Shown in pieces: positions 43,701 to 63,122 of a stretch of 64,000 nucleotides of DNA. Both the position numbers and the translations under genes were made by a program. Each line of letters begins with the position of its first letter. Within the stretch, counting starts at the first letter, position 1. Source of the DNA: Acidobacteriota bacterium (lineage in GTDB: Bacteria; Acidobacteriota; Blastocatellia; Pyrinomonadales; Pyrinomonadaceae); assembly GCA_019239425.1 (NCBI GenBank), contig JAFAZX010000081.1, positions 38,721 to 102,720 of the forward strand, read 5' to 3'. A model generated the notes under the pieces. That model worked only from the letters and a program-made list of their open reading frames with translations. It was not told where the DNA came from and ran no database searches.

Positions 43701-45614
43701 ATGCGATCTGTCATCGTCGGCACGGCCGGCCACATCGACCACGGGAAGACGACTCTGGTGCGCGCGCTGACGGGCGTGGACGCCGACCGCCTGCCCGAGG
43801 AGAAGCGTCGCGGCATCACCATCGACCTCGGGTTCGCCGAGCTGGACTTGGGCGACGTGCGCGTCGGCTTCGTGGACGTGCCCGGCCACGAGCGCTTCGT
43901 CAAGAACATGCTCGCCGGCGCGCACGGCATCGACCTCGTCGCGCTGGTCATCGCCGCGGACGAGGGCGTGATGCCGCAGACGCGCGAGCACTTCGACATC
44001 TGCCGCCTGCTCGGAGTCAAAGCCGGGCTGGTCGTTTTGACGAAGGCGGACGCGGTGGACGAAGAGTTGCTCGAACTCGTCCGGCTCGAAGCGTCGGAGC
44101 TGGTCGCCGGCTCTTTCCTCGAAGGCGCGCCGGTCGTGGCCGCGAGCGCGCGGACGGGGCAGGGCATTGAAGAGCTGAAGGAGGTTTTGCGCGCGGCGGC
44201 GCTCGCGGCGCCCGAGCGTTCGGGGGACGAGGTGGCGCGGCTGCCCGTCGACCGCTCGTTCACGATGCGCGGCTTCGGCGCGGTGGCGACGGGCACGCTC
44301 GTCGCGGGCGAGATTAGGGAGGGCGAAGAGTTGGAGCTTCTCCCCACGGGGACGCGCGTGCGCGTGCGCGGGCTTCAGGTGCACGGCGCGAGCGTGCACG
44401 AGGCGCGCGCGGGGCAGAGGACTGCCGTGAACCTCGGCGGCGTCGAGACGGCGGGCGTCGAGCGCGGGATGGTGCTCGCGCCCGTGGGTCGCCTGCGGCC
44501 GACGCAGATTATGGACGCGCGCGTCACGGTGCTCGCCGACGCGCCGCGACCCTTGCGCGCGCGGCAGCGCGTCCGCGTCCACCACGGCGCGTTGGAAGCG
44601 CTGGCGCGCGTCTCCGTGCTCGAAGAGTCAGGCGAGGTCGCGCCGGGCTCCGCGGGTCTCGTGCAGTTGCGCCTCGAATCGCCAATCGTCGCGCTCCCCG
44701 GCGACCGCTTCATCCTGCGCACGTACTCGCCGCAGCAGACGTTCGCGGGCGGCGTCGTCCTCGACGCTCACGCCCAGAAGCACCGCGGCCGCGAGCGCGC
44801 GTCGGCGCGCTCCGCGCTTAAAGCCTTCGAAGGCGCAGACCCGGGCGCGCGGCTCGCCTTCTTCGTCGAATCGGCGGGCGAGCGCGGGCTGCGCCGCGAG
44901 GAGGCCGCGGCGCGCACGGGCTGGCGCGACGACCGTTTGGCCTCCGCCGTCTCGGAGGCAGAGCGGCGCGGCCCGGTCGTCGAGGCCGAAGGGGTTCTGG
45001 TTTCTAAAGACGTTCTGGAAAGGCTGCGGCGCGCGGCGGTCGAAGAGGTCGAGGCGCACCACCGGCGCGAGCCGCTTTCGAAGGGCCTCGCGCGCGAGAC
45101 TCTGCGCGAAAAGGTCTTCACGCACGCCGCACCCGAGGTCTTCCGGGCCGCGTTGAAGAAGGCTGAAGAAGAGGGCGCGCTCGTCGCGGAGCGCGACCTC
45201 GTGCGCGCGGCCGGCCACAGCCTCGACCTCTCGCCCGCGGACGCCGCGCTGCGCGACCGGCTCGAAGCGGTCTACCGCGACGCGGCGCTCGAAGCGCCCG
45301 CGCTCGAAGACGCGTTCGCGCGCGCGGGCGGCGCGGGCGCGCGGCGCGAACACCTGCGCAAACTCCTCCAACTCCTCCTCGACGCGGGCGCGCTCGTGCG
45401 CGTCAAGGAAGACCTCCTCCTCCACCGCGACCCGCTCGAACACCTCACGGCGGCGCTGCGCGACTACGCCGCGCGCACCCCCGACCGCCTCATCGACGTG
45501 GCCGCCTTCAAAGAACTCTCCGGCGTCTCGCGCAAGTACGCCATCCCGCTCCTCGAATACTTCGACCGCGAGCGCGTCACCAGACGGGCCGGGGATAAGA
45601 GGCTGATTCTGTGA
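43701..45614 (+). CDS. selB: Selenocysteine-specific elongation factor SelB
   Basis: [59 protein letters not shown]-terminal winged helices with [14 protein letters not shown]-type tail ([28 protein letters not shown]). Confidence 0.95.
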
Positions 45615-47759: not shown

Positions 47760-47836
47760 GGCGGGGTAGCTCAGCTGGTTAGAGCGTGGGATTCATAACC
47801 CCAAGGTCGGGAGTTCAAGTCTCCCCCCCGCTACCA
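47760..47836 (+). tRNA. tRNA-Met (CAT), CCA encoded
   Basis: GGCGGGGTAGCTCAGCTGGTTAGAGC, anticodon loop TTCATAA, T-arm GGGAGTTCAAGTCTCCC, 3' CCA; an A31-C39 mismatch in the anticodon stem. Confidence 0.92.
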
Positions 47837-47860: not shown

Positions 47861-49090
47861 TTACGAGGCGGCGGCGGATTGCGGGTCCGCCGCCGCTTTT
47901 CGCTTTGCCGAGATTTTGCCGAGGCCGGAAAAGCCGCGCCCATCGTAGGACGCGACCAACTCCATCGCCCGCTCCATCTCCTCGGGGGAGGCGTGCGTGT
48001 AGTCGCCCGTCATGCTGTTGGGCGAATGCCCGAGGATGTCGCGGCGGACGTGCTCGGGCACGCCCATCTCGGCCGCCCTTGAAGACCACGTGTGCCGCAG
48101 GTCATGGAAGGTGAGGTTGCTGATCCCCGCTAGACCGCAGGCGCTGACGAACCCCTTCTTGATGTCGTTGATGCGCTCGCCCGTGCGGATGCTCCTGAAG
48201 ACGTACTCCCCCGTGGTCACGTCTTCGCAGAGCCTCCGCAGGATGTCGCGCACCCGCCGACTCATCGGGATCACGCGCGGCCTGCCGTTCTTGCTCTCCT
48301 CAATGAGGAGCCAGCCGGGCCTGACCTCCCACACCTCACCCTTGATGACGCGGGTGAAGGTGACGTGTCCGAAGTTCAGGTCCTGGCGCCTGAGCCGGAA
48401 CAACTCGCCCTTCCGCATCCCCGTGCAGAGAGCCACCTCCGAGACCGGCCGCAGGTGCTCACGCCTGCCGACTAAGCCCTTGCCGAAGAGCGCTTTCTCC
48501 TCTTCGGACGAGAGGCGGCGGCTGCGTTTGCGCCGCGCCGGTATCTTCCCGCGCACCGACTTTGGCAGCTCGTCGCAGGGGTTCGAGGTCGCCACCTTCT
48601 CCCTCATCGCCATCCGGAAGATGGACGAGAGCAGGGTCACCTCCTTGTTAACCGTGGTCGGGCTGCGCTTGCAACTCACCGCGCTCCCGTCCTCCAGCAC
48701 CCGCTTTCTGACAGTCTCGCTGTCCAAGCGCTGGTTGATGAACCTGACGACCGTCATCACCGTGATCTCGTCGAAGCCCTTGTCGTTGAAATGCTCCTTG
48801 AGCATCTCGCAGCGGAACTCGTCGTGATCCGATGATGAGTGGTTCTCGCGGGCGAAGGGTAGAAAGACCTTGTCCACGAAGGCCGAGAAGCGCTTCAACT
48901 CCTCGCGCTCCGCGCCGTCGCGGTAGGTGCCGTCCAGGACCTTGCGCCGCTCCTTGAAGGCGAGTTCGCGCGCCTCCTTTTTGTCCCCGGCGATAGAACT
49001 GCCGTCCTTCCCGTTGAAACTGCCTGAGTAACGCTTTCCGTTGACAAAGAACTCGTAGTGCCAGAACTGGCCTCTTTTCCTGACGTACAT
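47861..49090 (-). CDS. Tyrosine recombinase/integrase
   Basis: CTGMRKGELFRLRRQDL, HDLRHTWSSRAAEMGVPEHVRRDILGHSPNSMTGDYTHAS (R...HxxR...H...Y). Confidence 0.95.
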   Translation of the reverse strand: MYVRKRGQFWHYEFFVNGKRYSGSFNGKDGSSIAGDKKEARELAFKERRKVLDGTYRDGAEREELKRFSAFVDKVFLPFARENHSSSDHDEFRCEMLKEHFNDKGFDEITVMTVVRFINQRLDSETVRKRVLEDGSAVSCKRSPTTVNKEVTLLSSIFRMAMREKVATSNPCDELPKSVRGKIPARRKRSRRLSSEEEKALFGKGLVGRREHLRPVSEVALCTGMRKGELFRLRRQDLNFGHVTFTRVIKGEVWEVRPGWLLIEESKNGRPRVIPMSRRVRDILRRLCEDVTTGEYVFRSIRTGERINDIKKGFVSACGLAGISNLTFHDLRHTWSSRAAEMGVPEHVRRDILGHSPNSMTGDYTHASPEEMERAMELVASYDGRGFSGLGKISAKRKAAADPQSAAAS

Positions 49091-49840: not shown

Positions 49841-50052
49841 AGGCGGCTGCTTACGGGAGGGCGTGTGGCGAGGAGCGGATACTTCGTCAGGCTTACTAAA
49901 TCTACCCCCTTTCAACAGAAGTCTCTTCAATTATTCCTTGTCGCAGAGGAGTTGGAGGGTAGAGCCGCTTCAGCTTCCGGCACCGGAACTTCACATCGAT
50001 CTGCATGTGATGGCCCGGCGCTTGCTTCTCGTACTGCTGCCACGTCACGGTG

Positions 50053-50075
50053 GGACGTGTAACGATTACACGTCC
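50053..50075. promoter_or_regulatory. Inverted repeat, candidate operator upstream of ParB-like gene
   Basis: GGACGTGTAA CGA TTACACGTCC. Confidence 0.7.
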
Positions 50076-50141
50076 TCCTTTCTGAAAACTACAGCGAGAT
50101 GTGTCTACCGACTGCGGACCGCGATCAGAGTGAGGAGTTTT

Positions 50142-51233
50142 ATGGAAGTGCCGGCAGATGTCGGAAGTTTAGTCGTCGAACTTGAGTTGGGAAAACTTAA
50201 AGAGCCCACCTTTTACGAAGTCCTGTTCGGTGCCACCTCTATTGCTGAACAAGACCTTCTCCAAGACGCAGTACTCAAGGTCAGGCCGCTTAAGCCTGCC
50301 GGCAGGGCCTACGAGATCGTCGTCGGTGTCGAGCAATACAGAGCGGCGCTCAGGCAGGGCGCGCGAGCCGTCGCCGCCGTCGTCAAGGAGATGACGGAAG
50401 ACGAAGCGCGCCGCTACGCCACCGATGAGTTCCTGCGTGCCGCGGCCTCTTCGTCGGCTAGGAGCGTCGTCCAGCTTCTCGTCGCCGCCAAAGATAACGA
50501 GGCGCGCGGCGGCGAGTGGGGCGTCGAGCGCCTGACGAAGGCCCTGGGAATTAAAACGTCAACTTACGCGCACGCCTGGTCGAGTGTCACCTTTGTTTGT
50601 GATCAGCTTCGGCGGAGTGAGCCCGAGGCGGCGCACCTCGGCTTGGCGGAGTTAGTCGCCTTGGCGGTTCGCAGGAACTTTCTGCCCGCGTTCACGGAGC
50701 TTTACACGGGGCGGATGACGGTCAACCGTTTCTACCGGGATGTCTATAAAGCAAGTGAGGTCGGCCAGGAGAAGAGCCGGCAGCAGCAGGAGGCGAAGGG
50801 CAAGCGCAAACTTCGGCCCGCTGCCGGCGCGCGCCCTTCGGCAGAAGGCGTTGCCGCCGATAGCCCGGCCCACGCGGCACTCACCCCCGGACAACTCGTC
50901 ACCGAAGCCTTACTCAAACTAGCCGAAGCTGCGTCCGTAAATGACGGCGGCGATGACGACGCTGGCGGCGAACAGGTCTTGGACCAACAAATCGTCACGT
51001 TCATCGACTCACACATCAATCTCCAAGCCACGATCCGTCGAATCTGCCGGCGACTGCTAAACCACCTCGGCTCCATGCACGGTCATCACCGCAGGTCTAA
51101 AGCTACACGTCCGGCGCAGCCCGTCTACCTCGACGACGCCCGCCAGCTTTCCTTCGACCTTCCGGTGGCGGCGAGCCAGCCGGGCGGCCCGGAATCGGAG
51201 CGTCGGCGCGATAATAAAGCCAGCGCCGCCTGA
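50142..51233 (+). CDS. ParB-like nuclease/partition-domain protein
   Basis: VLKVRPLKPAGRAYEIVVGVEQYRAALRQGARAVAAVVKEMTEDEARRYATDEFLRAA resembles ParB/Srx core; ATG 50142 with GAGGAG upstream. Confidence 0.65.
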   Translation: MEVPADVGSLVVELELGKLKEPTFYEVLFGATSIAEQDLLQDAVLKVRPLKPAGRAYEIVVGVEQYRAALRQGARAVAAVVKEMTEDEARRYATDEFLRAAASSSARSVVQLLVAAKDNEARGGEWGVERLTKALGIKTSTYAHAWSSVTFVCDQLRRSEPEAAHLGLAELVALAVRRNFLPAFTELYTGRMTVNRFYRDVYKASEVGQEKSRQQQEAKGKRKLRPAAGARPSAEGVAADSPAHAALTPGQLVTEALLKLAEAASVNDGGDDDAGGEQVLDQQIVTFIDSHINLQATIRRICRRLLNHLGSMHGHHRRSKATRPAQPVYLDDARQLSFDLPVAASQPGGPESERRRDNKASAA

Positions 51234-51423: not shown

Positions 51424-51837
51424 ATGTCTGACCAAAAGAAGAAGGGGCAAAGTAAGGGGCGCTCGAAGGCCGGTCGCGGCGGGAGGCCGAAGCTGGACGA
51501 CACGGAACGTCGGAGCCGGATGATAGGCGTGTCCGTCAATGACGACGAGTACGAAGCGATTGGAGGCAAGGCCAAAGTGCATCACATGACCCGGGCCTTC
51601 TTCTTGCGTCACGTCGGCCTCGGCTACAGGATGCGCCGCCCGATCCCGCCCATCAACTATCTCGCATACAGGAAGCTGGGCCGCATGGCCGCGAACCTCA
51701 ACCGTGTAATTCTACTGAGCAACATGGGGAAGCCGTTCGGGATCAACCGGGAGTTCGCGGAGCAGATGTACGAGCAACTGCAATCGGTCCGGCGCAACTT
51801 ACTGGGGGTGGAGCGTGACGATCACGAAGGTAACTAA
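51424..51837 (+). CDS. MobC-like mobilization/relaxosome accessory protein
   Basis: RRSRMIGVSVNDDEYEAIGGKAK... INYLAYRKLGRMAANLNRVILLSNMGK; overlaps relaxase start. Confidence 0.8.
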   Translation: MSDQKKKGQSKGRSKAGRGGRPKLDDTERRSRMIGVSVNDDEYEAIGGKAKVHHMTRAFFLRHVGLGYRMRRPIPPINYLAYRKLGRMAANLNRVILLSNMGKPFGINREFAEQMYEQLQSVRRNLLGVERDDHEGN

Positions 51838-54154
51838 AGGCCGAAGTTTCGGCGGTGCGCTCGACTACCTCTTCTACGAGAGGGCGGGGCTCGGGCGCGA
51901 GCAGGAGCTCCTGCGGGCGCTCAACGAGCCTGAGCTGCCGGAACAGAATCGGGACGGTCTTGAGAAGGAAGAAGATCTCCTTCGCTCGAAGTCGCCGTCC
52001 GGTCAGGACGAGGCGGTCGAAGCGAAGGGCGAGCGGAAGCTTCGGGGCGAACTGATCGCCGGCAACGTCGCGGGCCGCACGGTCGAGGAAATTCAGCGCG
52101 AGATGGAGGCCTTCGCCGGGCGGAACCCGGAGGTCGAGCGCAAGGTCTTGCACGTAGCTATCAGCACCCGCGAGGAAGACAACGTCACGCCGGAGATTCA
52201 GGCGCGGATGGCCGAGCTGTACGCCGCGCGCAGGGGGCTCGACAAGACAGTCTGGATCGCCGTCCGCCACGAGAACGACCACGGCGAATTCCACATTCTC
52301 GCCTCGGCCGTCGATTACAGGGGGCGGGCGATCCGCGACTCGAAAGACTTCGAGCGCTCCGAAGAGATCGCGAAGGAACTGACGAGGGGGTTCAACCTTA
52401 CACCTGACATTCCGAGCAGAGAGTCGATGCGCAAATGCATGACGCAGGCCGAAATGAAATACGCGGCGCGAACGGGCAGGCCGAGCACGCGGGCAGTTCT
52501 TCAGGAGATTGCGGACGACGTGATCGGCCGCGGGGCGACGGCCACGGAGTTCATCGAGAGGCTGGAAGAGAGGGGCGTGCAGGTCGTCCCCTACATCAAT
52601 GAGAAAGACGAGGTGAAAGGCATCAGCTATCGTCTCGACGGCAAGCTGATGCGCGGCAGCGATCTCGGCCGCGGCTATTCATGGCCCGGCCTCCAGAAGG
52701 AGTGGGAACACCACAAGCAGTACCGCGAGGGCAGAGTCGACTATGAGCGAGAGAGAGACCATCCGGCAATTAGCAAGGCAAGAGAGCGTGAACAGGAGCG
52801 AATCCGCGCAGCAGCAACAAGGGAACACAGGGATGATGAACGAGCAATACAGTCAACTGGCAGGACAACTGAAGAAGTTACACGAAAGGCTGGATCACAT
52901 CGAGAAGAACCTGATCCTACAGCAGCCCGACGTGCTCGAATTCACGAAGACCGCATACCCGTACTTAGAGGCGGCGATCAGGAGGTGCGAGGCGGTCGAA
53001 CAGAAGCTACAGTCGCTGGAAAAGCTGGTGAGCGAGTACGAGGAGCACATGGCGGAGAACTGGGAGGCGACGGACGAGATCGTCAAGCAGCAGAGGACGG
53101 ACTTCGCCGCGATCAGCGAACGCTTTCAGGGCCTAGCGATCAGGGATCTGCAAGGCTGCCTCCAGCAGATACGGGCCGAGCTGGCGACGGTGTTGGCGGC
53201 CGAGGAGAAGTGCGAGGAGACGCTGGGCGAGTGCAGGGAATTGGCTCGACGGGTAGGTCAGATCTACGAGACGGCCAGCTGCACTATTCAGGAGCTGGCG
53301 GAGACCGTGACTGGGCACGTCAACGAGGTGAGGGAGAACTCGGAGCAGGCGATAGAACAAGCAAGGGTGAAGTTCGTCAAAACCTTTCGCCGGCTAGATA
53401 CGACACTCTGGGATCACCCGATCCTCGGCATGGCGCTGCTGGCCTTCATGACGATTGTACTCAGTACACTGACGGTGTTGACGCTAAACAGTTCCACGAG
53501 GGACGGGGAAATGAGCCAATCGGTCGAGGCATCAACGACGGCCACTCAGCAAGCACTCAAGCCGGTAATCGAGAGGATCGAGAAGCAGACGCAAAACTTG
53601 GACGTGATTTACCAGCAAAGCGAGGCGTTCGAACTCTACTTGAGGACCCTGCCAGTAAATCAACGCAACAAGAAGCGGGCGGAACTAATCGAGGGCGCGA
53701 AGAGGCAGAAGGCCGCCGAGGACGCCCGCAGGCGGGCAGATTAGCTCTAGGCACGGACGGGCAACAGTCGGGCACGCAGTCGTCCCAGCGTGAGCGGGCA
53801 GCGGCGCTTGAGCGTCTAAGTCAACTGACCGGCGTCAAGCAGCAGTCGGAGTTGCCCGACTTTGAAAAACTGGAACGGCTTACAAGCGTAAAGCGCCCGG
53901 AGCCAGCCTCGGCCCCGGGTGTGCCGGGCCGGCCGGACAAGGGGAATGCGGGCTTGGGTGGGACGACGCAGGAACCCTGCGTTTCTAGAGGACTGCCGGG
54001 CCAGAATGCGCCTTCGCCGACCGGCCGCGCGCTCGGCGAGCCGAACTACGGTCATCCCCCGTTACACCCGGCAGATTATGATCGTGACAAGGGGCGGACG
54101 CCCGGCAAAGATGACAGGTCAAATCGTACGTCCGGCTCCGGCCGGTCGCGATAG
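51815..54154 (+). CDS. Relaxase/mobilization nuclease (VirD2/MobA type), long Arg/Gly-rich C-terminal region
   Basis: TKVTKGRSFGGALDYLFYE, ERKVLHVAISTRE, VWIAVRHENDHGEFHILASAVDYRGRAI. Confidence 0.88.
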   Translation: MTITKVTKGRSFGGALDYLFYERAGLGREQELLRALNEPELPEQNRDGLEKEEDLLRSKSPSGQDEAVEAKGERKLRGELIAGNVAGRTVEEIQREMEAFAGRNPEVERKVLHVAISTREEDNVTPEIQARMAELYAARRGLDKTVWIAVRHENDHGEFHILASAVDYRGRAIRDSKDFERSEEIAKELTRGFNLTPDIPSRESMRKCMTQAEMKYAARTGRPSTRAVLQEIADDVIGRGATATEFIERLEERGVQVVPYINEKDEVKGISYRLDGKLMRGSDLGRGYSWPGLQKEWEHHKQYREGRVDYERERDHPAISKAREREQERIRAAATREHRDDERAIQSTGRTTEEVTRKAGSHREEPDPTAARRARIHEDRIPVLRGGDQEVRGGRTEATVAGKAGERVRGAHGGELGGDGRDRQAAEDGLRRDQRTLSGPSDQGSARLPPADTGRAGDGVGGRGEVRGDAGRVQGIGSTGRSDLRDGQLHYSGAGGDRDWARQRGEGELGAGDRTSKGEVRQNLSPARYDTLGSPDPRHGAAGLHDDCTQYTDGVDAKQFHEGRGNEPIGRGINDGHSASTQAGNREDREADAKLGRDLPAKRGVRTLLEDPASKSTQQEAGGTNRGREEAEGRRGRPQAGRLALGTDGQQSGTQSSQRERAAALERLSQLTGVKQQSELPDFEKLERLTSVKRPEPASAPGVPGRPDKGNAGLGGTTQEPCVSRGLPGQNAPSPTGRALGEPNYGHPPLHPADYDRDKGRTPGKDDRSNRTSGSGRSR
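52743..53744 (+). CDS. Nested out-of-frame coiled-coil protein with one TM segment (MobB-like arrangement); alternative start ATG 52833
   Basis: 333-aa ORF in a different frame entirely inside the relaxase gene; balanced composition, heptads (LKKLHERLDHIEKNLILQQ), TM HPILGMALLAFMTIVLSTLTVLTL. Confidence 0.72.
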   Translation: MSERETIRQLARQESVNRSESAQQQQGNTGMMNEQYSQLAGQLKKLHERLDHIEKNLILQQPDVLEFTKTAYPYLEAAIRRCEAVEQKLQSLEKLVSEYEEHMAENWEATDEIVKQQRTDFAAISERFQGLAIRDLQGCLQQIRAELATVLAAEEKCEETLGECRELARRVGQIYETASCTIQELAETVTGHVNEVRENSEQAIEQARVKFVKTFRRLDTTLWDHPILGMALLAFMTIVLSTLTVLTLNSSTRDGEMSQSVEASTTATQQALKPVIERIEKQTQNLDVIYQQSEAFELYLRTLPVNQRNKKRAELIEGAKRQKAAEDARRRAD

Positions 54155-59711: not shown

Positions 59712-62700
59712 TTGCCTCGCATATACGACAATATCGAACAGAAGTTGCTGCCGGCGCTCTGTGACGCGCTGGAGCCCGCGACGCACGCCGATTTCTGTGT
59801 CGGCTACTTCAACCTGCGAGGCTGGAAACAACTCGACTCGTACATCGAACGCTGGGACGGCGGGGAGGGCAAGCGTTGTCGACTGCTCGTCGGGATGCAG
59901 AAACTCCCGCAGGAAGAGCAGCGAGAGATGTACAGCCTAATTCGTTCGGACGGCGGGCTCGATAATTCGACCGCCCTACGCCTTAAAAAGAAACTGGCGG
60001 ACGAATTCCGTCAGCAGCTTGCCACCGGCGTTCCGACGAACGAGGACGAGGAGGGCTTACGACGCCTTGCCGCGCAAATTCGTGCGGGGAAAGTCGTCGT
60101 TAAGTTGTTCCTGCGCCATTCGCTCCACGCGAAGCTATACCTGCTTTACCGGCCCGACCCAATCAACCCGATTATCGGCTATCTCGGCAGCAGTAATCTA
60201 ACTGCCTCAGGGCTATCGCATGGCGGCGAGTTGAACGTTGACGTGCTGGACGACGACGCGACCCGGAAGCTGAACCGCTGGTTTGAAGACAGGTGGAACG
60301 ACCGCTGGTGCCTGGACATCTCGCAGGAGTTGGTCGAAATCATCGAGGAGAGTTGGGCGAGGGAGGAACTGACGCCCCCTTATCACGTCTACATTAAGAT
60401 GGCGTACCACCTCTCACAGGAGGCGCGAGCCGGGCTGGCTGAGTTTCGCATCCCGCGCGATTTCGGCAACCGGCTCTTCGCTTTTCAGACGGCGGCGGTG
60501 AAGATTGCAGCGCATCATTTGAACAAGCGCGGTGGTGTACTTATCGGCGATGTCGTCGGGCTCGGCAAGACTCTGATGGCGACGGCGCTCGCGCGCATCT
60601 TCGAGGATGATTACGGGATTGAAACCCTCATCATCTGCCCGAAGAACCTCGTGCCGATGTGGGAAGACTACAGGCAGCGTTACCGCCTTCGAGCCAAAGT
60701 GCTGTCGCTCACACGCGTCACGAAGGAACTCGCCGAGATGCGCCGTTTTCGTCTCGTGCTGATTGACGAGAGCCATAATCTGCGCAACCGCGAAGGCAGA
60801 CGCTACCGGGCGATAAAGGAGTACATCGAGAAGAACGACAGCCGCTGCATACTGCTCTCAGCCACGCCCTACAACAAAACTTACCACGACCTCTCCAGCC
60901 AACTGCGGCTCTTTGTCGCGGAAGACAAGGATTTGGGAATACGCCCCGAGCGGCTGTTGCGAGAGCTGGGCGACGCCGCTTTCGCCGCGCTCGGGCAAGT
61001 CGCGCCGCGCACCATCGCCGCGTTTGAGAAGAGCGAGTACGCGGACGACTGGCGTGAGCTGATGCGGCTCTACATGGTGCGGCGCACGCGCACCTTCATC
61101 CAGGAAAATTACGCAAAGGCGGACGAAGCGACCAGCCGCAAGTTCCTCGTCCTCGAAGACGGCACGCCATCCTACTTCCCATCGCGCGTGCCTAAGACGG
61201 TCAAGTTTCGGGTTGATGGTGATGACCCGCAGGACCAGTACGCGAAACTCTACACGCCGCCCGTCGTTGACGCGGTTAATAATCTGAATCTGCCGCGTTA
61301 CGGCCTCGGCAATTATGTCGCCGTGCGCCCGCGCGTTAAGCCGATGGCGGGTGAAGAGAAGGTCTTACGTGATCTGTCGCGCGCCGGAAAACGCCTTATG
61401 GGTTTTTGCCGGACGAATCTGTTCAAGCGGTTGGAGTCGAGTGGACAAGCCTTCCTGCTCTCAATCGAGCGCCATATCCTGCGCAACTACATCTTTCTGC
61501 ACGCCATCAATAACAACCTGCCTCTGCCCATCGGGACACAGGACGCGACGCTGCTCGACGCTCGCGTGATGGACGAAGACGCGGACTCAACGAGCCTCAC
61601 AGCGAGCTTAATCGACTATGAAGATGGGGCGGACGCAGACAGGGCCGAAGAAGTTGCGGAGTCTGAAGATGTTTCTTTACTCCATGATGCTAAGGACTTC
61701 CAGCGTCGCGCTGCTTCAATCTACGCCCAATACGCTAGCCAGCATCTCAGTCATTTCAAGTGGCTCGCGACGACGCTGTTCACCTCGGAACTCAAGCGGG
61801 ATTTGGAGGAGGACTGTCAGGCGTTACTCAGTATCCTGCACCTGAGCGGCGAATGGCGCGCCGCCGAAGACCGTAAGCTTGATGCGCTTGCTACCCTGAT
61901 CAATGGGAAATACAAGACGGAGAAGTTGCTCGTCTTCTCGCAGTTTGCCGACACGGTACGTTACGTTGCTCGGGAACTGTGTCGCCGCGGTATTAAGCAG
62001 ATAGCCGGTGTCACCGGTGCTTCGGAGAATCCGACGGAAATCGCGTGGCGTTTCAGCCCTGTCAGTAATGAGAAGCAGACGCGCGTTCCTTCTGAAGAAG
62101 AACTGCGCGTACTAGTCGCCACAGATGTTCTGAGTGAGGGACAGAACTTGCAGGACGCGCACGTAGTCGTCAACTACGATCTGCCGTGGGCGATCATCCG
62201 CCTCATCCAACGCGCTGGTCGCGTTGACCGTGTCGGCCAGAAGGCCGACAGCATCCTATGCTATTCGTTCCTCCCAGCCGAAGGAGTCGAGAACATCATC
62301 CGCCTGCGCGCACGTGTGCGAGAGCGTCTGCGCCAGAACGCCGAGGTGGTCGGCACCGACGAAGCCTTCTTCGAGGACGACAAGCGTGACGGCTTTCTGC
62401 TCGACCTCTACAACGAGAAGAGCAACGTCCTCGACGGCGAGGCTGATACGGAAGTTGATCTCGCCTCCTACGCCTACCAGATTTGGAAGAACGCCATCAC
62501 AGAAAACCCCAAGTTGCAAAAGATTATCCCAGAACTTCCCCCTGTGACCTACGCAACCAAGCAGCACATCCCTTTTGGTAAGGACGCGCCCGAAGGAGCA
62601 CTCGTCTACATGCGTACGGCGGAGGGCAACGACGCGCTCGCGTGGATTGATGAACAGGGGAATAGTGTCACCGAATCGCAGTATGCAATTTTGAAGGCTG

Positions 62701-63122
62701 CTGAGTGTGTGCCCGAAACGAAGCCGCTGCCGCGAGCCGAAAATCACCATGAACTCGTGCAGAAAGGCGTCGAACTTATAATCCGTGAAGAAAAGAACGT
62801 TGGCGGCGGATTGGGCAGGCCGAGCGGCGCGAGGTTTCGCATCTACAACCGCTTGAAGTCCTACGCTGACAGCGTTCGAGGGACCCTCTTCGAGTCTGAA
62901 GCATTGCTTAAAACGATAGACGAAATTTACCGTTATCCACTGCGCCAGGCCACTGCCGACGTTTTGAACCGGCAGATGCGAGGCGGCGCGACAGATGAAT
63001 CTCTCGTCCAACTCGTTATTGCCCTACGCGACGAAGACCGCCTGTGCGTCGTCCACGAAGACGAGCAGGACGGCGAGCCGCGTATCATCTGTTCGATGGG
63101 CTTGAGGAACGCACAGGCTTAA
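59712..63122 (+). CDS. PLD-domain SNF2-family helicase
   Basis: N-terminal HSLHAKLYLLYRPD...GYLGSSNLTASGL (PLD HxK/GSSN); GDVVGLGKTLMA (Walker A), LIDESHNLRN, LLSATPYNK, VLVATDVLSEGQNLQDAHVVVNYDLPWAIIRLIQRAGRVDRVGQ. Confidence 0.9.
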   Translation: MPRIYDNIEQKLLPALCDALEPATHADFCVGYFNLRGWKQLDSYIERWDGGEGKRCRLLVGMQKLPQEEQREMYSLIRSDGGLDNSTALRLKKKLADEFRQQLATGVPTNEDEEGLRRLAAQIRAGKVVVKLFLRHSLHAKLYLLYRPDPINPIIGYLGSSNLTASGLSHGGELNVDVLDDDATRKLNRWFEDRWNDRWCLDISQELVEIIEESWAREELTPPYHVYIKMAYHLSQEARAGLAEFRIPRDFGNRLFAFQTAAVKIAAHHLNKRGGVLIGDVVGLGKTLMATALARIFEDDYGIETLIICPKNLVPMWEDYRQRYRLRAKVLSLTRVTKELAEMRRFRLVLIDESHNLRNREGRRYRAIKEYIEKNDSRCILLSATPYNKTYHDLSSQLRLFVAEDKDLGIRPERLLRELGDAAFAALGQVAPRTIAAFEKSEYADDWRELMRLYMVRRTRTFIQENYAKADEATSRKFLVLEDGTPSYFPSRVPKTVKFRVDGDDPQDQYAKLYTPPVVDAVNNLNLPRYGLGNYVAVRPRVKPMAGEEKVLRDLSRAGKRLMGFCRTNLFKRLESSGQAFLLSIERHILRNYIFLHAINNNLPLPIGTQDATLLDARVMDEDADSTSLTASLIDYEDGADADRAEEVAESEDVSLLHDAKDFQRRAASIYAQYASQHLSHFKWLATTLFTSELKRDLEEDCQALLSILHLSGEWRAAEDRKLDALATLINGKYKTEKLLVFSQFADTVRYVARELCRRGIKQIAGVTGASENPTEIAWRFSPVSNEKQTRVPSEEELRVLVATDVLSEGQNLQDAHVVVNYDLPWAIIRLIQRAGRVDRVGQKADSILCYSFLPAEGVENIIRLRARVRERLRQNAEVVGTDEAFFEDDKRDGFLLDLYNEKSNVLDGEADTEVDLASYAYQIWKNAITENPKLQKIIPELPPVTYATKQHIPFGKDAPEGALVYMRTAEGNDALAWIDEQGNSVTESQYAILKAAECVPETKPLPRAENHHELVQKGVELIIREEKNVGGGLGRPSGARFRIYNRLKSYADSVRGTLFESEALLKTIDEIYRYPLRQATADVLNRQMRGGATDESLVQLVIALRDEDRLCVVHEDEQDGEPRIICSMGLRNAQA

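Follow-up and report, generated by a model that had tools for sequence, protein, structure and literature searches.

In plasmid ColE1 the genes mbeB and mbeD are both nested in mbeA. In RSF1010 and R1162 mobB lies within mobA/repB in another reading frame and is required for mobilization (PMC2200642), and the MobA protein of RSF1010 is of the MOBQ type (PMC12857230). Two further groups of plasmids are more relevant to the present work. In the IncP-6 (Rms149-type) and related MOBP plasmids, represented here by Plesiomonas pPS-MS-17-188-3 (L012) and a Chitinibacter locus (L013), a MobC/NikA-like gene is followed by a MOBP relaxase gene. The nested gene of L012 is annotated as 'IncQ-type mobilization protein MobB' and matches PF17511 (E 3.7e-13), and that of L013 is also annotated as IncQ-type MobB. 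In the IncQ2-typed plasmid pEMB2 (L016) and in a pWES-1-like plasmid (L015), a 227-aa ORF whose product has a transmembrane (TM) segment is nested in an 813-aa mobA.

Here we describe an overlap of this kind in a 64-kb stretch of DNA (the window, Table 1). The initial annotation had placed a 333-aa ORF inside a 779-aa relaxase ORF, and upon re-checking the coordinates proved to be exact: the 333 codons lie wholly within the 779 codons of the relaxase, in the +1 frame. The GTG start of the relaxase ORF is consistent with the alignment of relaxase N-termini. The nested product was also described as protein-like with a clear TM helix, and we do find one TM-like segment with a mean hydropathy of 2.28. 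We consider it probable that the nested ORF represents a genuine gene, overprinted on the relaxase in the +1 frame, that both frames are used, and that the product is a MobB-like protein that would have a role in transfer.

Table 1. Positions of the features discussed in the text, numbered within the window.
Feature	Position	Strand	Remarks
SelB, selenocysteine-specific elongation factor	43701-45614		upstream of the element
tRNA-Met (cat), likely integration target	47760-47836	+	3' end ~25 nt from the integrase ORF
Tyrosine recombinase (Phage_integrase), likely element integrase	47861-49090	-	domain match
ParB N-terminal-domain protein	49863-51233	+	456 aa as called; true start may be downstream
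NikA/MobC-like relaxosome accessory protein	51424-51837	+	137 aa; 23-nt overlap with the relaxase start
MOBP-type relaxase ORF	51815-54154	+	779 aa; GTG start; nuclease domain at residues 73-195; without primase domain
Nested start region TATGAGCGAGAGAGAGACC	52742-52760	+	YERERD in the relaxase frame, MSERET in the nested frame
Nested ORF	52743-53744	+	333 aa; ATG start; +1 frame; mostly helical (predicted); one TM segment
TM segment of the nested protein, ILGMALLAFMTIVLSTLTV	53421-53477	+	residues 227-245
Relaxase C-terminal tail 3' of the nested gene	53745-54154	+	Gly/Pro/Arg-rich; end basic; frame open
1136-aa protein with PLD and SNF2 helicase domains	59712-63122		best PADLOC match HKD+Snf2, 4.5e-49

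The likeness to the IncP-6-type plasmids begins with the gene order, since in the window, too, a NikA/MobC-like gene precedes the MOBP relaxase gene. The relaxases of L012 and L013 share 37-38% aligned identity with that of the window. Their mobB genes share both the relaxase codon of the start and the +1 frame with the nested gene of the window, and encode, like the latter, a coiled coil and a TM segment. In other words, the nested ORF begins at the homologous codon (TATGA within a Y-E/D-x-x-R-D motif) that is used by the annotated mobB genes of MOBP relaxase/primase genes: the window reads YERERD in the relaxase frame and MSERETIRQ in the nested frame, as compared to YEQDRD and MSKTETLRQ in L012. 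The differences are also substantial. MobB of the IncP-6 type has 166 aa and matches PF17511, whereas the nested protein of the window has 333 aa and does not. Moreover, the relaxase of L012 runs on into a RepB primase with both PF16793 and PF22448, while neither domain is found in the window relaxase. In L015 and L016 the position of the nested start and the frame are again as in the window, and the product likewise has a TM segment, near residues 169-187, but the nested product is shorter and the relaxase frame continues for ~330 codons beyond the nested gene, as opposed to ~136.

The parallel with RSF1010 that was drawn initially holds for the nested mob arrangement but not for its nearest relatives, which are the MOBP relaxases of IncP-6/IncQ2-like plasmids and not the MOBQ relaxase of RSF1010. 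In RSF1010, mobC is transcribed in the opposite direction, whereas in the window the relaxase is of the MOBP type and the NikA-like gene is upstream on the same strand. The more specific proposal, a membrane factor for mobilization that resembles MobB and is overprinted, is supported by its position, the +1 frame, the start codon, the helical-plus-TM plan and the constraint seen in both frames.

The identity of the relaxase as a MOBP-type protein is secure, with a PF03432 match at residues 73-195 (E 1.4e-20; 74.3 bits versus a cutoff of 24.6). Its motif III (52265-52294, relaxase residues 151-160) reads RHENDHGEFH, aligned as RH-ENDHGEFH, versus RHTDTEHEHIH in the relatives, i.e. of the triad the first and the last aligned His are retained, Glu stands in place of the middle, metal-binding one, and one residue is missing. 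We take this to be a form between the three-His motif and the HEN motif of ColE1 MbeA. The likeness to ColE1 mbeA consists of a MOBP relaxase gene with nested auxiliary genes and, in the window, a partly HEN-like motif III. A Glu/Lys-rich insertion of ~50 residues (51878-52050, residues ~22-78) separates motif I from the remainder of the nuclease domain, and is not present in the aligned relatives. The protein is the sole PF03432 relaxase of its host genome (7.4 Mb, 103 contigs). Distant relaxase matches were seen in 7 others of the 297 genomes sampled from the phylum and in 3 of the 165 sampled from the class, and used as a lone query the window relaxase found no relatives among genome contigs or viral contigs. 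The window relaxase is isolated in these samples. The closest plasmid relaxases, at ~35% identity, come from IncP-6/IncQ2-like and from cyanobacterial plasmids.

The coding phase along the overlap was followed by the GC content at each codon position and by codon-usage log-odds, with the genes of the window as the reference. By both measures the relaxase frame gives way to the nested one at ~52743, at the nested ATG, and the signal leaves the nested frame at ~53744, after which neither frame is strong. The relaxase frame had been said to look protein-like again beyond the nested stop; this is borne out weakly, as its codon-usage log-odds are 0.04 and 0.02 and then fall to -0.22.

Such a phase change at both borders could also be produced by sequencing or assembly indels near 52743 and 53744, in which case there would be one continuous relaxase with its middle part misread in the wrong frame. 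We regard this as extremely improbable: the borders coincide with a start codon at the homologous mobB position and with a true stop codon, a gene using a single frame would not keep the other one stop-free, and the same layout is present in independent genomes. The direct switch between frames at 52743 would equally be expected if programmed frameshifting fused the relaxase domain to the nested frame, so that a MobA-MobB fusion would be made instead of, or besides, a separate MobB. Here a +1 shift would be required, no slippery heptamer is visible at the junction, and the ATG is located exactly at the switch as it is in annotated mobB genes, which makes frameshifting very unlikely.

The use of the relaxase frame was assessed by stop avoidance, i.e. 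the nested protein was synonymously recoded and the stops arising in the relaxase frame were counted. Two codon models were employed, one shuffling the gene's own codons and the other drawing on the codon usage of neighbouring genes. No stop is present in the relaxase frame over the nested gene, as compared to 5.0 expected from the self-shuffles (P 0.0008-0.001) and 8-12 expected from the codon usage of neighbouring genes (P<0.0002). The same tendency is seen at the level of codon pairs, where a T-ending codon before a codon starting with AA, AG or GA occurs in 0 of 107 cases in the nested gene versus 18 of 225 elsewhere (Fisher P 0.0011). Twenty ordinary genes of the window, used as a control, contain 216 stops where 217.1 are expected (observed/expected 0.995), therefore codon-context bias is not the cause of the missing stops. 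Past the nested gene the relaxase frame stays open for ~136 more codons (chance P ~0.03). In addition, synonymous recodings would give a less hydrophilic relaxase-frame peptide than the actual one (P 0.009, one of eight features tested). In the reverse test, the P value for an open nested frame given the relaxase peptide ranged from 0.0004 to 0.087, depending on the codon model.

The absence of stops bears on the possibility that the nested ORF alone is coding, with a relaxase of ~310 residues that has lost its stop codon and is followed by a passenger frame open by chance in GC-rich DNA. The codon scores over the overlap do favour the nested frame alone, the relaxase-frame peptide is of low complexity, and a Bacteroides relaxase (L018) stops before its next gene. 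Nevertheless, a chance passenger would not be expected to show zero stops against 5-12 expected when matched controls are at 0.995, nor to remain open for the further ~136 codons, and related relaxases read through their nested mobB to the RepB primase (L012) or to a K/R-rich end. We therefore consider this explanation unlikely, though it deserves more weight than the two above.

The converse, that only the relaxase is real and that its low-complexity tail leaves the nested frame open by chance, is highly improbable in our judgement. There are many spurious long ORFs in the GC-rich window, the open nested frame has a P of 0.07-0.09 given the relaxase peptide and the codon usage of the element, and no homologues of the nested product were found in 297 phylum-level genomes or in plasmids. 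However, the codon-usage and GC-phase signals are in the nested and not in the relaxase frame, the product has a clear TM segment and predicted helices, and the start codon is at the known position of nested mobB genes. For the nested ORF a GC artefact is excluded. Given zero stops against 5-12 expected in the relaxase frame, together with the codon signal of the nested one, both frames appear to be in use, the nested frame by codon signal and the relaxase frame by stop avoidance.

To survey other relaxases for nested genes, GTDB genomes were searched with an alignment built from three relaxases, and 80 loci were obtained. Of the 68 loci (GTDB and plasmid) in which the motif could be located, 37 have an ATG at the codon and at least 55 open codons behind it, 10 have the ATG with an early stop, and 21 have no ATG. 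Besides the plasmids described above, a conserved nested product of 166-168 aa with a TM segment is found in 15 further Pseudomonadota loci. MOBP-like relaxases of Bacteroidota also have a nested +1 ORF at the same or nearly the same position: in L079 and L086 the product has 126-129 aa, starts at an internal ATG and contains a strong TM segment, and in Flavobacteriia (L088-L105) it has 61-64 aa, is without a TM segment and shows no detectable similarity to the nested protein of the window. Three cyanobacterial loci (L067, L014 and L026) have nested ORFs at or near the homologous codon, and in a few cyanobacteria the products have ~140-222 aa. An independent relaxase from a genome of the window's own family (L023) contains a 120-aa nested ORF. 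The nested protein of the window is the longest in the survey, where lengths range from ~61 to 333 aa.

According to the initial annotation, frequent stops in the nested frame of homologues would speak against the overlap. The outcome is mixed: the frame is open at many loci, but a nested gene is missing from many relaxases of cyanobacteria and from that of L022 (1555 aa), which also comes from the window's own family. The overlap is thus a feature of a subset of the relaxase family.

Where the overlap could be compared within a group, its mean identity is higher in the nested frame than in the relaxase frame (0.66 versus 0.52 in Pseudomonadota, 0.70 versus 0.52 in Flavobacteriia), and the substitutions are mostly at the third position of the nested codons (0.45 and 0.49, respectively). 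In Flavobacteriia L088-L105 the 61-64-aa ORF (MNKSETVQLFSK..., e.g. L088:4749-4940) is conserved at the position of mobB, again in the +1 frame. The pattern of substitutions in these loci indicates selection on the nested ORF, and their relaxases have a K/R-rich stretch at the end, after the nested ORF. The codon just past the relaxase domain may be an old site of overprinted mobilization genes that is shared across phyla (Pseudomonadota, Bacteroidota, some cyanobacteria and the host group of the window), with genes that are selected where testable and have diverged beyond sequence recognition; we give this suggestion an even chance of being correct.

The nested protein itself resists assignment to a family. 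Its AlphaFold model is all helical, with low confidence (pLDDT 59). A Pfam search gave no match to PF17511 (Mobilization_B) at E<=1, nor was an MbeB or MbeD domain reported. The apolipoprotein match in Pfam (E 3e-4) is far below the family cut-off and was set aside as a generic coiled-coil match, as were the SMC/Rad50-like matches of related nested proteins. In a profile comparison with the MobB family residues 1-19 alone aligned (E 0.0096, probability 4%), in a start region that is partly forced by the relaxase frame; nothing aligned in the reversed control. A profile of the flavobacterial nested ORFs gave no alignment to the window protein beyond chance. We note that the relaxase motif Y-E/D-x-x-R-D tends to give M-x-x-x-E in the +1 frame, and that M-x-x-x-E is also seen in relaxases that have no nested gene (e.g. 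MTHTEIIN-stop in L041). For this reason the homology of the start site is firm as a position, but it does not settle the homology of the proteins. Of the features that characterize MobB, the nested gene shows the +1 frame within mobA, the start just past the relaxase domain, and a helical region followed by a TM segment. The protein thus fits a MobB-like assignment by position and architecture (a long helical region and one TM helix), though not by sequence.

A mechanism can be proposed on this basis. The MobA-like MOBP relaxase would nick oriT, aided by the NikA/MobC-like protein encoded upstream. Translation of the nested gene would initiate internally, at the ATG that lies within the Y-E-x-x-R-D motif of the relaxase; no strong Shine-Dalgarno sequence was seen upon inspection of the region ahead of 52743. 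The protein would begin with ~220 helical residues in the cytosol, cross the membrane by a single helix and end in a C-terminal region of ~88 residues. In analogy to MobB of IncQ plasmids it may anchor or stabilise the relaxosome at the membrane, and may assist in presenting the relaxase-DNA complex to the type IV secretion system of a helper. The relaxase frame would be held open through the nested gene so as to reach a hydrophilic, partly basic C-terminal tail, presumably because this tail is needed; it could serve as a linker and a type IV transport signal. Positively charged C-terminal clusters are transport signals in some systems (PMC3297438), and according to the title of a study cited there, MobB is required by the type IV transport signals that the R1162 relaxase carries (Parker and Meyer 2007). 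We infer expression, membrane topology and a transport role for the nested protein, as well as mobilization by helper elements.

The genomic context points to a mobile element. Starting from tRNA-Met, the order is integrase, ParB-domain gene and mob operon, the latter beginning ~3.6 kb from the tRNA, and the GC content drops from ~0.69 to ~0.60 over the tRNA-Met/integrase/mob stretch. Most integrative mobilizable elements with a single tyrosine recombinase integrate at specific sites such as the 3' ends of tRNA genes (PMC5704250). As the integrase adjoins tRNA-Met and is near the relaxase, the arrangement suggests an integrative mobilizable element at this tRNA. An attR was not found within the 64-kb window, oriT-type repeats were not evident upstream of the NikA-like gene, and a scan of the same region for a few nic-like patterns gave no match. 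The 3' half of tRNA-Met recurs, at 81-92% identity, at four other sites of the genome (C20:31544-31655, C20:56598-56709, C103:893-952 and C103:13659-13714); three of the four copies have no detected tRNA, and these copies are possibly attachment-site scars of related elements. The PLD/SNF2 protein is possibly the product of a defence gene carried near the element.

That mobB can be overprinted within a relaxase gene is already known, and the window case is best described as a highly diverged variant of the nested MobA/MobB pair. What is new is the 333-aa nested protein with no family match, the relaxase devoid of a primase, the probable chromosomal element and the different host group. The single-sequence statistics for the maintenance of both frames are also new. 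We found no description of nested mob genes in such hosts or in Flavobacteriia in the literature within our coverage, which left out most subscription papers.

In the PLSDB gene table, which is incomplete, L012 is listed with MobB and the RepB primase but with no relaxase, and L015 with fragments plus an ORF on the reverse strand that lies over the relaxase domain. Automatic annotation often retains one frame, as in these two cases. Reports of nested overlaps are therefore probably too few, and the mobility of elements like the present one may be wrongly assessed. With the overlaps collected here, selection on both frames can be measured directly. The present locus would extend the nested MobA/MobB plan beyond its original plasmid groups to a likely chromosomal element, with a far larger nested protein that is no longer recognisable by sequence.
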